Virus record (IMG/VR): IMGVR_UViG_3300050821_005980 | Coordinates: 1-24,829 of that record | Reading direction: 5' to 3' (one strand) | DNA from: a virus | Length of the DNA: 24,829 bases | Part shown: positions 3,127 through 8,091 of the stretch, piece after piece | Layout of the letters: every line of letters starts with the position of its first letter | How positions within the stretch are numbered: the first letter of the stretch is position 1 | The notes under the pieces: model-generated | The model's input: only the letters and a program-made list of their open reading frames with translations | The model's database searches: none | Told to the model about the DNA's origin: nothing | Program-made: the position numbers and the translations under genes

Positions 3127-3154
3127 AATATAGCATAATTGTGCAATGTGTCAA
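3127..3154 (-). promoter_or_regulatory. Near-consensus sigma70-type early promoter
   Basis: On the minus strand TTGACA (3149..3154) is separated by 16 bases from TATATT (3127..3132). Transcription would start near 3120 and lead about 45 bases later into the ribosome binding site of the HTP.PW gene. The spacer contains a short inverted repeat, ATTG-CA-CAAT, that could be an operator half, but this is speculative. It is the best promoter match I see in the window and marks the late-to-early boundary. Confidence 0.75.
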
Positions 3155-3156
3155 CT

Positions 3157-3220
3157 AAAAAAATGCAGAGAAAAGACGCCTTGAACCCATCGAACAAAAC
3201 GCCTAAATTCCCTGCATTTT
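3157..3220 (-). terminator. Possible long-loop terminator of the lysis operon
   Basis: On the minus strand AAAATGCAG (3212..3220) can pair with CTGCATTTT (3160..3168), with further T residues after the second arm. It lies 27 bases after the patatin stop and directly before the early promoter -35 box, where a terminator is expected. The 43-base loop and A/T-rich outer pairs make it weaker than the other terminators here. Confidence 0.4.
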
Positions 3221-3246
3221 CTTATTCGCCCTTACGGACAAATCTT

Positions 3247-4158
3247 TTACCATCCTAATTTTGCCGCATCAATGGCCGCCAGCTCGGCGGCATTTGCTCC
3301 AAGATCCCAGCGGCCTTGTTTGCTGAAATCCAAGATGGAACCTGGCACCGAAACTCGGCTGTAACACTCCACCACTTTTCCTCCCGCCTTTTCAAATTTT
3401 TCAAGGCGGGCCTCGGTCATGGCCTCATTGATCGTGGTGATATTGGAAAGCACACCGAGACAAACTTGCACGCCTGTTTTCATTGCAGCCGGAGGTGTGA
3501 AATCATCCAGCCAAAAGGCCTCATCGTTTGGCCTTGGGCTTTCCGCTCCGCAATAGACTACAAGTATCTCATCCGCTCCGGCGTCGATCGCATCTCCAGC
3601 TGGGTTATTTTCCACGGGTCCGCCATCGCTAAAGCCAAGATGTGGAGGAAAGGCTCCCTCAATGGCCGAAGAGCAAAGGGCCATGTGACGAAGCATGCCA
3701 GCCAATATTCGCCTCTGCCCTTCCTCGTTGTGATAGGCCCGAGCCCGGTAAATGATCCCAAGTTTTTCCTCAATTTCCTTGGTCGAAGTATCACCCATAT
3801 ATTTCTTAACCAAGGCTTGAAGCGGCGAATTGTCAAAGGCAGATTGCCCGTTGATTAGACCGTGGCAAATTTGCGCTTCCGAGATCGGATGAGCCCATGG
3901 ATGCAGCGCCACCGCGGTAAATCCTGGAGTGTAAACGTCCTCATCCTTTGTGATCGCATCCCACGCCTCTTTGAGTAACGAGGCGTTGCCACGATCCAAG
4001 AGGCTCTTGAGCAAAATGCCGGCATTAAGGGAGCCCGCACTATTGGCGTAGACATGCGTGATCCCTTTTAAGAGGCCATGCAATTCAAGATTGAAAAGAG
4101 CTCCAGCCTGGACCTCTCCCCAAGAGCCTCCGCCCGGAAGTATGAGAGCCCGTTTCAT
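3247..4158 (-). CDS. Patatin-like phospholipase
   Basis: A 303-aa protein with the patatin fold signature. A Gly-rich oxyanion loop PGGGSWGEVQAG lies at residues 8-19, the nucleophile Ser40 is in the elbow ANSAGSLNAG, and the catalytic Asp178 is in FSDGGPVENNP, where the second Asp/Asn and Pro are also conserved. The usual Gly two residues before the nucleophile is Ala38 here. The elbow is otherwise intact, so the enzyme is probably active. Patatins cleave acyl chains from phospholipids, acting at membranes. There is no signal peptide. Its ATG overlaps the stop of the holin candidate (ATGA), so the two are made together. Inference: it attacks the membrane during lysis, perhaps once the holin has opened the inner membrane. 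A role in virion entry, or one unrelated to lysis, cannot be excluded. Confidence 0.85.
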   Translation of the reverse strand: MKRALILPGGGSWGEVQAGALFNLELHGLLKGITHVYANSAGSLNAGILLKSLLDRGNASLLKEAWDAITKDEDVYTPGFTAVALHPWAHPISEAQICHGLINGQSAFDNSPLQALVKKYMGDTSTKEIEEKLGIIYRARAYHNEEGQRRILAGMLRHMALCSSAIEGAFPPHLGFSDGGPVENNPAGDAIDAGADEILVVYCGAESPRPNDEAFWLDDFTPPAAMKTGVQVCLGVLSNITTINEAMTEARLEKFEKAGGKVVECYSRVSVPGSILDFSKQGRWDLGANAAELAAIDAAKLGW

Positions 4159-4502
4159 TCGCCTGGCTTGATGAAGGCGGCGGCCTGTGAAGCTTGCTCA
4201 GGGCTTAAGGGCTTGGGCGCAGCGGATGTTGGCAATGTAGCCGCTCCGGGCACTGATTGGCCCGGCACAGCAATGTCACGCTTGGATAAGGCGGCGATCA
4301 AAGTTACCGCCATACCACCAAGCGCAATGGAAATGTTTTGCACTACGGCGGGCGTGAGGATCATGGCGCAAGCTGAGCAAGCTCCGGCGATCTGGACGGC
4401 GATGATTCCAACGGTTGAAATGACGCCAGCCTTGACACGATCCGAATTGGCCGCGGCGTCGCCCACAAGAAATGCCATTGCTTTGGTATAGAGCTTATTC
4501 AT
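4155..4502 (-). CDS. Holin candidate (two transmembrane segments)
   Basis: A 115-aa protein with two hydrophobic segments at about residues 25-48 (small, Cys/Ala/Ile-rich) and 52-71, a short polar N-terminus, and a Pro/Ala/Ser-rich C-terminal tail. Size, topology and position directly after the endolysin gene fit a phage holin, which forms holes in the inner membrane to release or activate the endolysin. No specific holin family is recognised. The start has an excellent GGAGG six bases upstream. The gene overlaps the patatin gene by four bases. Confidence 0.65.
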   Translation of the reverse strand: MNKLYTKAMAFLVGDAAANSDRVKAGVISTVGIIAVQIAGACSACAMILTPAVVQNISIALGGMAVTLIAALSKRDIAVPGQSVPGAATLPTSAAPKPLSPEQASQAAAFIKPGE

Positions 4503-4521: not shown

Positions 4522-5205
4522 TTAGGCTGGAGGAATTCCAGCCTTGAAATTTTCGTGTTGCTGATTCAAAAAGGCCAAAGTTGAGGGCCCAGGGGTCCAG
4601 GTGAGATCCGCCAAGGATGCGGCATTGATACATCGATTGAGCCAGCCATCCGCAAACTCTCTCTGATCGTGTGGCTTTTCCAAATCATCATGAGCACCTA
4701 GCCAGGCGTGAAAGGCGCTATTCGATGCCCGGATGATTTCCACGTAAAGGGAAAGTTGGGAATTCAAAAGTAAAAGGCAGGCTTTTTGAAATCCAAAGTT
4801 GGCGCACTTTGTGACGGTCTCGCCATTCTCGCTTATCTGCCCATCCGCCTTGGCGCCGACAATTTTTTGAAGCTCTTTGACGGCAAAGGAAGGGTATTTG
4901 TTGACGGCGAATTGATAAAGAATGAAATCTAATGGAGCTTGAAGGAAAGCGCATCCAGCACGATCAAAATATAATTCCCGAAAGATGGCTCGGCGGATTG
5001 GCTCGGTTATTTTTTCAATGAGGCTTGGGGCTAGGCCGTGAATTTTATTGTATTCGTCAAGATCGCTTTGAATGCAGCCCGTGACCGTGTATCCGCCATT
5101 GTCGTTAGTATCTTTTCCCTTCCCGCCCTCAAGCCGATCCGTCAATGGCAAACAACGTCCAAAGGCTAAATCGGCTGGAGAGGGCAAGGATGGGTCTTGG
5201 CTCAT
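4522..5205 (-). CDS. Endolysin, GH108-type peptidoglycan hydrolase
   Basis: A 227-aa protein. The N-terminal LTDRLEGGKGKDTNDNGGYT corresponds to the GH108 catalytic motif 'EGGy..dp.D.GG.T', putting the catalytic acid at Glu26. The following YNKIHGL and the central FAVNKYPSFAVKELQKIVGA plus ADGQIS match the helical region and the Asp-Gly peptidoglycan-binding-3 motif seen in this family. These enzymes cut the glycan strands of murein. There is no signal peptide, so release would rely on the adjacent holin candidate. No clear ribosome binding site precedes the ATG. Translation may be coupled to the secreted-protein gene that ends 11 bases upstream. An extra C-terminal stretch of about 60 residues could bind cell wall. 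Confidence 0.8.
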   Translation of the reverse strand: MSQDPSLPSPADLAFGRCLPLTDRLEGGKGKDTNDNGGYTVTGCIQSDLDEYNKIHGLAPSLIEKITEPIRRAIFRELYFDRAGCAFLQAPLDFILYQFAVNKYPSFAVKELQKIVGAKADGQISENGETVTKCANFGFQKACLLLLNSQLSLYVEIIRASNSAFHAWLGAHDDLEKPHDQREFADGWLNRCINAASLADLTWTPGPSTLAFLNQQHENFKAGIPPA

Positions 5206-5216
5206 GGTCTAAATTT

Positions 5217-5735
5217 TTAGAAAGTGCAGATTGAAACGCCAGCGGTATCAGTGATCGCTGTGAGGCTTCGCAAATGCAAAGTAATGCCATCCCTTTGGCC
5301 CATGTTCACAATTGCGCTTGCTCCGGCTGGAATGGCGATGCCACCCGTTTGGGTAACTCCGGTGCTGATCGCCGTGGGGGTCATGCTCACCCATGCCACC
5401 ATCGTATAAAGGCCATTGTTGACAATTTGGGCTTGGTAATTTCCAGCATATTTGCTGTTTGTTTGATCCAAGCCAGCCACAGAGGTAACGTTGATCGGCG
5501 TGCTCGTTCCCGAAAGAAATTGATAGTTCACGCCAAAACTGCAATCCACCACTTCACGGGTAATGCGGCCTTCAAACCTCAAATTGCTTGCGGCATCCGA
5601 GGTTGGACGGCCAGCGGGACCACCATAGGGAGCCGTGACGTTGAGAGTTGTGGTATTGGCATGCACTGGCATCGACGGTTGCATGAGCACAAACGCCAGC
5701 ATTGCCGCGCTGAAAAGCAAAATCCTTTTAATCAT
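5217..5735 (-). CDS. Small secreted protein with Sec signal peptide
   Basis: A 172-aa protein. The start at 5733..5735 (MIKRILLFSAAMLAF) is chosen because GGAGG lies six bases upstream; an ATG two codons earlier abuts that site. Residues 1-26 form a typical Sec signal peptide ending in PVHA, with likely cleavage before Asn-Thr. The mature part is Thr/Ser/Ala-rich, predicted beta-rich, with two cysteines far apart (VDCSFG and the C-terminal SICTF) that could form a disulfide after export. No family is recognised. It lies between a membrane protein and the endolysin. It could be a surface or periplasmic factor such as an exclusion or lysis accessory, but there is no direct evidence. Confidence 0.65.
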   Translation of the reverse strand: MIKRILLFSAAMLAFVLMQPSMPVHANTTTLNVTAPYGGPAGRPTSDAASNLRFEGRITREVVDCSFGVNYQFLSGTSTPINVTSVAGLDQTNSKYAGNYQAQIVNNGLYTMVAWVSMTPTAISTGVTQTGGIAIPAGASAIVNMGQRDGITLHLRSLTAITDTAGVSICTF

Positions 5736-5827
5736 GACCATCCTCCATTTGCAGCCTTGGCCGCTGGTTTAATTCCTAATGAGCTTGAATCTTAACGGAC
5801 GAATTCAACACCCGCAATAATCTTGTT

Positions 5828-6199
5828 TCAGGGTCCACGAGCATCCACTTGATTTGTTTTGAAGGCTGTAACAAGACCGTCAACTTTTCCTTCCAGCCTG
5901 GCAAACTCCAAAGCCCAATGCTGATCGCTGATCTCAATGGCCCGCTGCGCTGCCTCAGTGGATGCCTTTTTGGCGATTTCGGTTGAAATCTTTTCAACTT
6001 GAGCCTGAGTTATTCCCGTTCCTGCCAAGGTTAAATCTGGCAATAAAATTTCCTTGGCTTGCCTCCATCCAACTAAGGCAATGAGCAACGCCACAAGAAT
6101 CATTTTTGGATCCTTGATAAAAAAATCAATAAGGGCCCGGACAAAATGCCCGATCTTTCTATCCTTTCGCGCTTCTTCTTGCTCGTGTTCTTCGGGCAT
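5828..6199 (-). CDS. Single-pass membrane protein with C-terminal coiled coil
   Basis: A 123-aa protein. ATG at 6197..6199 is preferred over a GTG two codons upstream because AGGAG lies five bases before it. A charged N-terminus (about 15 residues) is followed by an amphipathic stretch and one transmembrane segment around residues 31-46 (KMILVALLIALVGW). Residues about 60-120 are helical with heptad-like spacing (ISTEIAKKASTEAAQRAIEI). The topology resembles some phage spanin-like or holin-associated proteins, but no family is recognised. It precedes the lysis genes on the same strand, with 92 bases before the next gene. Confidence 0.6.
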   Translation of the reverse strand: MPEEHEQEEARKDRKIGHFVRALIDFFIKDPKMILVALLIALVGWRQAKEILLPDLTLAGTGITQAQVEKISTEIAKKASTEAAQRAIEISDQHWALEFARLEGKVDGLVTAFKTNQVDARGP

Positions 6200-6207
6200 G
6201 GCCACTC

Positions 6208-8091
6208 CTATTTGAAATACCTTGGTACTAGCTCAAGGTAATTGACATAAAGCGTGGAATTGTTCACAAAACTATTTTCCTGTGCTGTGTAAGTGATAGT
6301 GATAGGGCCTGGGGAGGTTGTTTGGTGATCATCAAGACGCATATCCCTGCCAGAGCTATTGAAACTAGCCCGGGTACTCACAGGCACTCCCGTAACAAAA
6401 GAATAGGAATTATTATTCAAATTTGTTGCCGCAAAACATCCCGTGAGAAAACTAGCTGGCTGTCCAGTATAAAAGGTTCCTGCCAGGACCACAGGGCTGG
6501 TTCCGGCTAGAAACGCATTTATGCCACTTAAATTGGTGATTGATTCCACATTTGAATAACTGATCACGCCTACAACAACATCGCTCACACCTGAATTATA
6601 ATTGACCACTAAATTTGCCGTACCCGGATATGGCCTAAGTTTATAGAAAGTGCTCAGAGTGCCTCGTACAGCAAAGTTCCCGCCAGGATCAGAATTATTG
6701 TTTACCTCGGCCTTAACTAAAGCCTGATTGTTGAAGGTAACAGATTTCACATAGTTGCTACCTGAGATCGCCGAATTCACATGCACGATTAGAACGGCAT
6801 AATTTGAACAGCTCACGTTATAGGACATTGTAAAAGATTGAGGCAAACCTCCCGTGAATCGGTGAATTGTAGAATTGCAAAGGACCACGCCTGGCGTAAA
6901 GGATGGTGTTGCCGTTGATGTTGGTGTAGCAAAAAATGTCTGAGTTGGCGTTGTGGTCGGCGTGCCACTGGGCGTGGCCGTGGGCGACCAGGTTGGAGTT
7001 CCCGTGGGTGTCCCTGTAGGGCTTGCCGTTGGACTCCATGTTGGCGATGCCGTAGGGGAAGCCGATGGAGTTGCCGTAAATGTAGGGGTTGCCGTTGGGG
7101 TAACAGTAAAAGTCGGTGAGGCTGTGGGCGTGGCGGTAAATGTTGGCGTGCCTGTGGGTGAAGCGGTATATGTCGGGGTCCAGGTCGGCGTCGGCGTGCT
7201 AGTTAAGGTGATGGTAAAAGTTGGCGTCCAGGTTCCTGTGACCGTGAATGTTGAAGTATCCGTTGGGGTCACGGTCCATGTCGGAGTCACAGTGAACGTT
7301 CCTGTAAAAGTATTGGTGATCGTATAGGTCGGCGTGACGGTTGGACTGTAGGTGAATGATGGCGTCGCAGTCGGGCTATAAGTAAACGTCTGTGTTACCG
7401 TAGGCGTCACGGTGGGCGTATTGGTCGGCGTGGGCGTGGGAGCTGAAAGCAGTTCTTGACCAATGGCCGCACCGCCGGTTGTCGTTTGAGTCACAGACCA
7501 AAGTCCGGAATTCACCGGGCCCATGTATCCGCCATAGCCTTCCGTGTTGGCATTGAAAAGCGTTGTGAGCTGGCCATCTGGCGAAAAGCCGCTATTCGGA
7601 TTCGAGTTCGTAACAACAAATTCACTTTTGTTGGTCGCACTAGCCGTTAAGTTAAAGGTCGAATTATTGGCGCCGTTTTTATCCGATCCCTGTCCAAGTC
7701 CTGACACGCCATACCATTCAATCACGCCTAATCCCGCCTGGGTGCTTAGGCCCGTCGGTACATTGAAATTGATTGTGCTGAGTCCGGTACTGCTCGGTGC
7801 CCAAGTCAATAAGTCAGCCTGGCTTCCTGCCGCACCTGCCTGGGTTGTTTCAGAAACCAAAGTGAAGGTTCCATTGGTGGATGTGGCACTCACAGCTCCA
7901 AGGGTTGTCTGGTTTTGATGCGCTGTGAACATCACCGTAAAAAAATTATTTTTATTCACTACGGTGTAAGTAAGGCTATGAAATGTGGTCGAAGTAGTAT
8001 CAATTTTACTATTCGATCCAATCAAAATAGGATCGGCACGTAGACCAAAGGCTGCCATTGTTAGAAATAAAGTTGTCAAAAACTTTTTCAA
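6208..8091 (-). CDS. Large secreted two-domain protein with long Thr-Pro linker
   Basis: A 627-aa protein starting with TTG at 8089..8091, with AGGG six bases upstream. A signal peptide (KKFLTTLFLTMAAFGLRA) is probably cut before Asp-Pro. Residues about 20-215 form an N-terminal beta domain. Residues about 217-400 are a Thr/Pro/Ser-rich linker with few charges. Residues about 400-627 form a second beta domain ending in LELVPRYFK. Both domains resemble the secreted repeat family with 'VTYGG..L' and 'YYLL.P..GTANVVV' strands, for example VKSVTFNNQAL and STFYKLRPYPGTANLVV. The architecture is the same as the upstream 491-aa gene, so the pair probably arose by duplication. Such linkers usually extend adhesins from the cell surface. 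Whether this is a virion protein or is exported by the infected host is unknown. Confidence 0.75.
   Translation of the reverse strand: MKKFLTTLFLTMAAFGLRADPILIGSNSKIDTTSTTFHSLTYTVVNKNNFFTVMFTAHQNQTTLGAVSATSTNGTFTLVSETTQAGAAGSQADLLTWAPSSTGLSTINFNVPTGLSTQAGLGVIEWYGVSGLGQGSDKNGANNSTFNLTASATNKSEFVVTNSNPNSGFSPDGQLTTLFNANTEGYGGYMGPVNSGLWSVTQTTTGGAAIGQELLSAPTPTPTNTPTVTPTVTQTFTYSPTATPSFTYSPTVTPTYTITNTFTGTFTVTPTWTVTPTDTSTFTVTGTWTPTFTITLTSTPTPTWTPTYTASPTGTPTFTATPTASPTFTVTPTATPTFTATPSASPTASPTWSPTASPTGTPTGTPTWSPTATPSGTPTTTPTQTFFATPTSTATPSFTPGVVLCNSTIHRFTGGLPQSFTMSYNVSCSNYAVLIVHVNSAISGSNYVKSVTFNNQALVKAEVNNNSDPGGNFAVRGTLSTFYKLRPYPGTANLVVNYNSGVSDVVVGVISYSNVESITNLSGINAFLAGTSPVVLAGTFYTGQPASFLTGCFAATNLNNNSYSFVTGVPVSTRASFNSSGRDMRLDDHQTTSPGPITITYTAQENSFVNNSTLYVNYLELVPRYFK
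6893..7443 (-). repeat. Degenerate Thr-Pro-coding repeat tract
   Basis: About 550 bases of imperfect short repeats within the 627-aa secreted protein gene, encoding units such as TPTATPTFTATP and SPTASPTGTPTGTP. On the plus strand it reads as recurring GTNGGNGT-like units. The units are not identical copies, so the tract looks maintained at the protein level rather than as a recent expansion. It could still support slippage and length variation. Confidence 0.85.

Follow-up and report, generated by a model that had tools for sequence, protein, structure and literature searches.

The phage proteins that disrupt the outer membrane at lysis include spanins, which are membrane-fusing lipoprotein or transmembrane proteins, and the amphipathic peptides known as disruptins (PMC12819732). 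According to the figure given in that article, which cites Kongari et al. 2018, identifiable spanins are missing in about 13% of the tailed phages with Gram-negative hosts, and it is presented there as an open question whether phages without spanins rely on disruptins or on some other means of breaching the outer membrane (PMC12819732). Lipid-cutting enzymes enter this picture from two sides. A lytic cassette consisting of a patatin and a holin-like protein was proposed in 2022 for the Wolbachia phage WO (PMC9203015), and LysB of mycobacteriophage Ms6 has been proven experimentally to be a lipolytic enzyme of the third step of lysis (PMC5707550). For virion-packaged phage patatins, or phage phospholipases in lysis, the literature search returned only phage WO and virome papers. 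The locus described here appears to be a variant of the patatin/holin cassette already proposed, with a patatin of another subfamily and with a GH108 endolysin added. New are the terminator and promoter boundary of its operon, a census of patatins across IMG/VR, and a count of endolysin adjacency. With its known active site, a patatin inside a putative holin/endolysin operon is a concrete candidate for such a disruptor, and one that lends itself to testing.

The source of the locus is an IMG/VR record of 24,829 bases from an unclassified tailed phage, the whole of which is called the window below. Because recognised end repeats are absent, the record is probably a fragment. Its main genes all lie on the minus strand and run from the portal, the major head protein, head-tail and tail-tube proteins and tail proteins to the patatin/lysis region, beyond which small DNA-metabolism genes (pyrophosphatase, RecT-like, exonuclease) are found. 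In order of transcription the patatin/lysis region consists of a one-TM protein, a 174-aa protein, the endolysin, a holin-like protein and the patatin (see the table). A 627-aa protein at 6208-8091 carries long Thr-Pro-rich repeats (TPTxTxT) and is probably a tail or appendage linker. The record holds no tRNA genes that could serve as a clue to the host, and searches of IMG/VR with the patatin, the 681-aa tail protein and the tail-tube protein gave no close relatives.

Table. Features of the patatin/lysis region and its downstream boundary, in order of transcription (window positions).
Feature	Positions	Strand	Description
One-TM protein	5828..6205	(-)	125 aa (123 aa from ATG 6199); charged, likely helical C-terminal part
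Signal-peptide-like protein	5217..5741	(-)	174 aa; N-terminal signal-peptide-like segment, no lipobox
GH108 endolysin	4522..5205	(-)	227 aa; PF05838, E 1.3e-9; phrog_315 endolysin, E 8e-17
Holin-like protein	4155..4502	(-)	115 aa; two adjacent hydrophobic segments; RBS GGAGG
Patatin-like phospholipase	3247..4158	(-)	303 aa; ATG start; Pfam PF01734
Intrinsic-terminator-like hairpin with U run	3157..3223	(-)	begins 24 bases past the patatin stop
Sigma-70-like promoter	3127..3154	(-)	TTGACA-N16-TATATT; TG before the -10

An earlier note on this DNA had claimed an intact Ser40/Asp178 patatin, and the gene does look real and intact. Its product matches Pfam Patatin with E 4.4e-16 and 60 bits (cut-off 27.7), covering the full profile (1-191), and has neither a signal peptide nor a TM segment; the GC content of the gene matches that of its neighbours. 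The oxyanion loop (G9-G10-G11-S-W-G14) is of the Gly-rich GGGxxG type, and the catalytic dyad is formed by S40, in a nucleophile elbow where Ala replaces the first Gly of GxSxG (A38-N39-S40-A41-G42), and D178, followed by two glycines in agreement with DG[GA]. Across an alignment of 63 patatin sequences G9, G10, G19, S40, G42, S163 and D178 are invariant, and G11 and G14 are nearly so. With this alignment as input, AlphaFold2 gave a model of pLDDT 84 and pTM 0.85, which replaced a poor earlier one built from seven sequences (pLDDT 50). Compared with solved patatins the model scores Z 24-27, including Z 26.4 for PlpD (5fya; rmsd 2.7 over 246 residues) and Z 24.8 for patatin-17, and in a profile search the nearest solved structure is PlpD (E 5.9e-29), ahead of CapV (3e-15). 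No PHROG matches the window patatin, and none of 50,697 phage records gives a good match; one weak match there (E 0.01) was set aside as an unverified 6.3-kb record with bacterial-looking genes, and the plasmid matches proved to be either common bacterial patatins or hydrolases unrelated to them.

The patatin directly follows the lysis genes, much as the earlier note had described it. The GH108 endolysin, which is 31-39% identical to annotated phage lysozymes and endolysins, has no signal peptide and carries a catalytic-type E-G-G motif at residue 26; its stop lies 19 bases before the holin-like gene, and the latter in turn overlaps the patatin start by the four bases ATGA. This overlap, claimed from the outset, is confirmed by the reading frames, but it is ordinary, as it also occurs at other gene junctions in the window, and taken by itself says little about function. 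Hydropathy places the two hydrophobic segments of the 115-aa protein at residues 31-49 and 53-71. Since this protein has no family match, and no homologue in the 50,697 phage records, the holin label rests on topology and position; from these we infer a holin, predicted to permeabilise the membrane.

The hairpin that follows the patatin gene folds at -41.4 kcal/mol within a 111-nt segment (z -6.64), and none of 200 shuffles was as stable. The promoter next to it has 11 of 12 consensus matches, is the best in a scan of the first 10 kb, and is placed for the next gene (ATG 3074, RBS AAGGAG). As hairpin and promoter succeed each other right after the patatin stop, the patatin reads as the gene that closes the tail/lysis operon.

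Cargo genes are often found where a module ends, and the patatin could be such an accessory gene, serving lysogenic conversion, superinfection exclusion or anti-CBASS-type interference with defence. Two observations speak for this: the fold also matches the CBASS effectors CapV and CapE (Z about 25, with 16-20% identity in the structural alignment), and patatins inserted on the opposite strand in three other viral contigs (L056, L061 and L063, see below) look cargo-like. The window patatin, however, lies within the lysis operon, with no promoter of its own seen in the 10-kb scan, and PlpD outranks CapV in the profile search, which leaves a cargo role distinctly unlikely. Moreover, PADLOC gave no match for the patatin, and no nucleotide cyclase (CD-NTase) was found among the window genes scanned with Pfam and PHROGs. 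With both of these absent, the patatin was rejected as a CBASS effector, and the suggestion in the earlier note that it counters or imitates host phospholipase-based defence comes down to a shared fold.

A scan of the whole window for lipobox ORFs that could encode an o-spanin or a u-spanin returned none at strict settings, and relaxed settings added only implausible ones, which lie antisense to other genes or within them in another frame. Of the control proteins, lambda Rz1 and Bor were recovered and P2 LysC was not, which shows that the scan is not exhaustive. The lack of a clear spanin pair noted earlier is thus borne out, and in a record that is a 24.8-kb fragment it is suggestive of spanin absence. 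The one-TM protein has its TM segment near residues 28-50 and, in its 123-aa form, i-spanin topology; it matches the Rz-like spanin family phrog_1327 very weakly (E 0.086) and has no homologue among the phage records. It could be an inner-membrane spanin, or is a candidate second holin or antiholin. The 174-aa protein, which lies between it and the endolysin and has no significant family or PDB match, is itself a candidate for envelope disruption. It is possible that the patatin stands in place of spanins, if the host has an outer membrane that must be disrupted at all.

What the sequences show is a gene with an intact active site, a bounded position in the operon and, in unrelated phages, a recurring adjacency to endolysins or holins; the enzymatic activity of the patatin, its substrate and timing, the compartment in which it acts and any part that it has in lysis are predictions. 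The patatin may be a late cytosolic enzyme that acts in lysis as an accessory, cutting envelope phospholipids, a tentative reading to which we give somewhat less than an even chance. Encoded at the end of the tail/lysis operon, the patatin would be translated late, and since neither it nor the GH108 endolysin has an export signal, both would be expected to wait in the cytosol, where the patatin would accumulate in parallel with the endolysin. The holin-like protein would then permeabilise the inner membrane, and the endolysin would reach the wall. Once the holin had opened, the patatin could use Ser40/Asp178 catalysis to deacylate phospholipids in the inner membrane as well as in the inner leaflet of the outer membrane, and the lysophospholipids and fatty acids so released would weaken the membranes further. 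In this way deacylation would contribute to the collapse of the inner membrane and, in a diderm host, to that of the outer membrane as well.

A cytosolic phospholipase might also remodel host membrane lipids late in infection, by supplying fatty acids, changing curvature or adjusting the timing of the holin, and not be needed for envelope disruption at all. The predicted cytosolic location, without a signal peptide, speaks for this, as does the wide spread of patatins in phages in many contexts; studies of marine and Arctic viromes, moreover, count phage or viral patatins among the auxiliary metabolic genes (PMC9469726, PMC9723777). Against it stand the operon-terminal position right behind the holin-like gene and the repeated adjacency to endolysins in unrelated phages, and we regard remodelling as an unlikely explanation for this gene.

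The wider distribution of phage patatins was surveyed by profile-type scans of IMG/VR with growing alignments, which yielded about 93 viral contigs with patatins. Most of these patatins are not beside lysis genes and many follow tail genes, and the notion that phage patatins are generally members of lysis cassettes was rejected. The commonest context is directly behind a recurrent tail-gene family (41 loci, near duplicates still counted), and patatins are also found among structural genes in contigs L058, L070 and L078. On this evidence the window patatin might be tail-associated or packaged in the virion, working on the host envelope during entry or while the tail matures, and its place after the lysis genes would then reflect the mere adjoining of tail and lysis modules. 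Four lysis-region genes, however, separate it from the nearest tail-like gene, and the window genes match no neighbours of other phage patatins; a tail or virion role thus seems rather improbable here. Patatins are frequent in large tailed-phage contigs (L042-L146), most often right behind the recurrent tail-gene family just mentioned, which encodes short proteins of the YTYSISxDFPNxKV type, and no description of this tail-linked patatin family was found in the literature. Frequent as patatins are in tailed-phage contigs, that of the window matches no PHROG and finds no good counterpart among the cultured-phage records searched, which makes the family under-described.

A minority of patatins adjoins endolysins, and this counts in favour of the lysis reading. 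A scan of 125 proteins encoded next to patatins showed Amidase_2 to be the commonest Pfam family, with three members. For a count of adjacency, records that had been found by patatin alone, the window itself being left out, were searched for Amidase_2, GH108, Phage_lysozyme and Peptidase_M15_4. A recognisable endolysin domain was present in 13 records and lay no more than 150 bases from the patatin in four of them (L048, the amidase of which scores slightly under the Pfam cut-off, L056, L061 and L063); in the other nine the distance was 10-112 kb, a range that holds for the Phage_lysozyme and Peptidase_M15 endolysins. Uniform placement would lead one to expect about 0.18 adjacent records against the four observed, which represent three lineages, and without the sister contig L061 three of 12 are adjacent (P for at least three about 4e-4); this null overstates significance, as late genes cluster, and the excess is taken as an indication only.

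The arrangements differ among these contigs. In L048 the patatin and amidase genes overlap on the same strand, whereas they are convergent in L056 and L061 and divergent in L063, so that in the last three, with the genes on opposite strands, co-expression is not implied. The amidases of L056 and L061 are 41% identical, that of L063 is distant, and that of L048 has no BLAST match to the others. A tree divides the endolysin-adjacent patatins into three or more separate groups, namely L056/L061, L048, and the window with L063, the last with a support of 0.80 and a very long window branch. Adjacency to an endolysin or holin has thus apparently arisen on more than one occasion, though it is a minority arrangement. 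The exact cassette of endolysin, holin-like gene and patatin, for which the earlier note had recommended a search in other phages, has no homologue that we could find, and GH108 beside a patatin was not found in 73 other records searched; related endolysin or holin adjacency occurs in a few contigs. The lysis role proposed in that note is partly supported on balance: membership of a lysis operon is supported by the terminator/promoter boundary and the independent endolysin-adjacent patatins, while the interpretation built on it stays tentative.

Some further patatins deserve mention. In L161 (7704-9558) a patatin with an extra N-terminal region fused in front closes a tail operon, and a GTA_holin_3TM-like gene (E 2e-4, under the cut-off) comes next. 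In L067 (5483-6912) a distant patatin shares its start region with an overlapping 172-aa lipoprotein-like ORF, a possible o-spanin-like neighbour, and TM genes flank the locus. An Asn just before the catalytic Ser (NSxG) is seen in the window (4039-4047), in L056 (2640-3485) and in L161 (7704-8873), and all three of these patatins adjoin lysis genes, while tail-linked patatins carry GTSVG or GVSVG; the numbers are small.

A more general form of the lysis reading would hold that one class of tailed phages uses a phospholipase as the third component of lysis, an enzymatic counterpart of membrane fusion by spanins that was recruited several times beside unrelated endolysins. We consider this doubtful at present; if true, it would explain some of the phages that have no recognisable spanins.

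This returns us to the known systems. The late region of phage WO likewise has a patatin next to the gene for a small holin-like membrane protein, and a role in lysis has been proposed (PMC9203015; see also PMC3173496). The patatin of WOVitA1 (L158) nevertheless belongs to another subfamily, with a DGGGIRG loop, and is 24% identical to that of the window over 232 aa (E 0.004). WO has no endolysin, whereas the window encodes one, and the WO holin-like protein has one N-terminal TM segment and a coiled coil (71 aa in WOVitA1), whereas that of the window has two TM segments. The one-TM protein that the window does encode is not adjacent to the patatin but sits upstream of the 174-aa protein and the endolysin. 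In the undaviruses, GH108-bearing relatives of WO, the holin-like gene is paired with GH108. As two defining features of the WO cassette, the lack of an endolysin and the one-TM holin, are not shared, the window parallels that cassette without belonging to it, although it may work in a similar way.

PlpD of Pseudomonas aeruginosa, which is among the top fold matches, has the same Ser/Asp dyad. It is a secreted protein of autotransporter type, whereas the window patatin is a lone domain without an export signal. LysB, a mycolyl-arabinogalactan esterase, is likewise a lipolytic enzyme encoded in a lysis cassette, and its host has an outer membrane (PMC5707550); its family and substrate differ from those of the patatin, no homology is implied, and its function is proven where that of the patatin is predicted. 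Spanins and disruptins, finally, act at the same step that is proposed for the patatin, the disruption of the outer membrane, but the patatin would do so as an enzyme.
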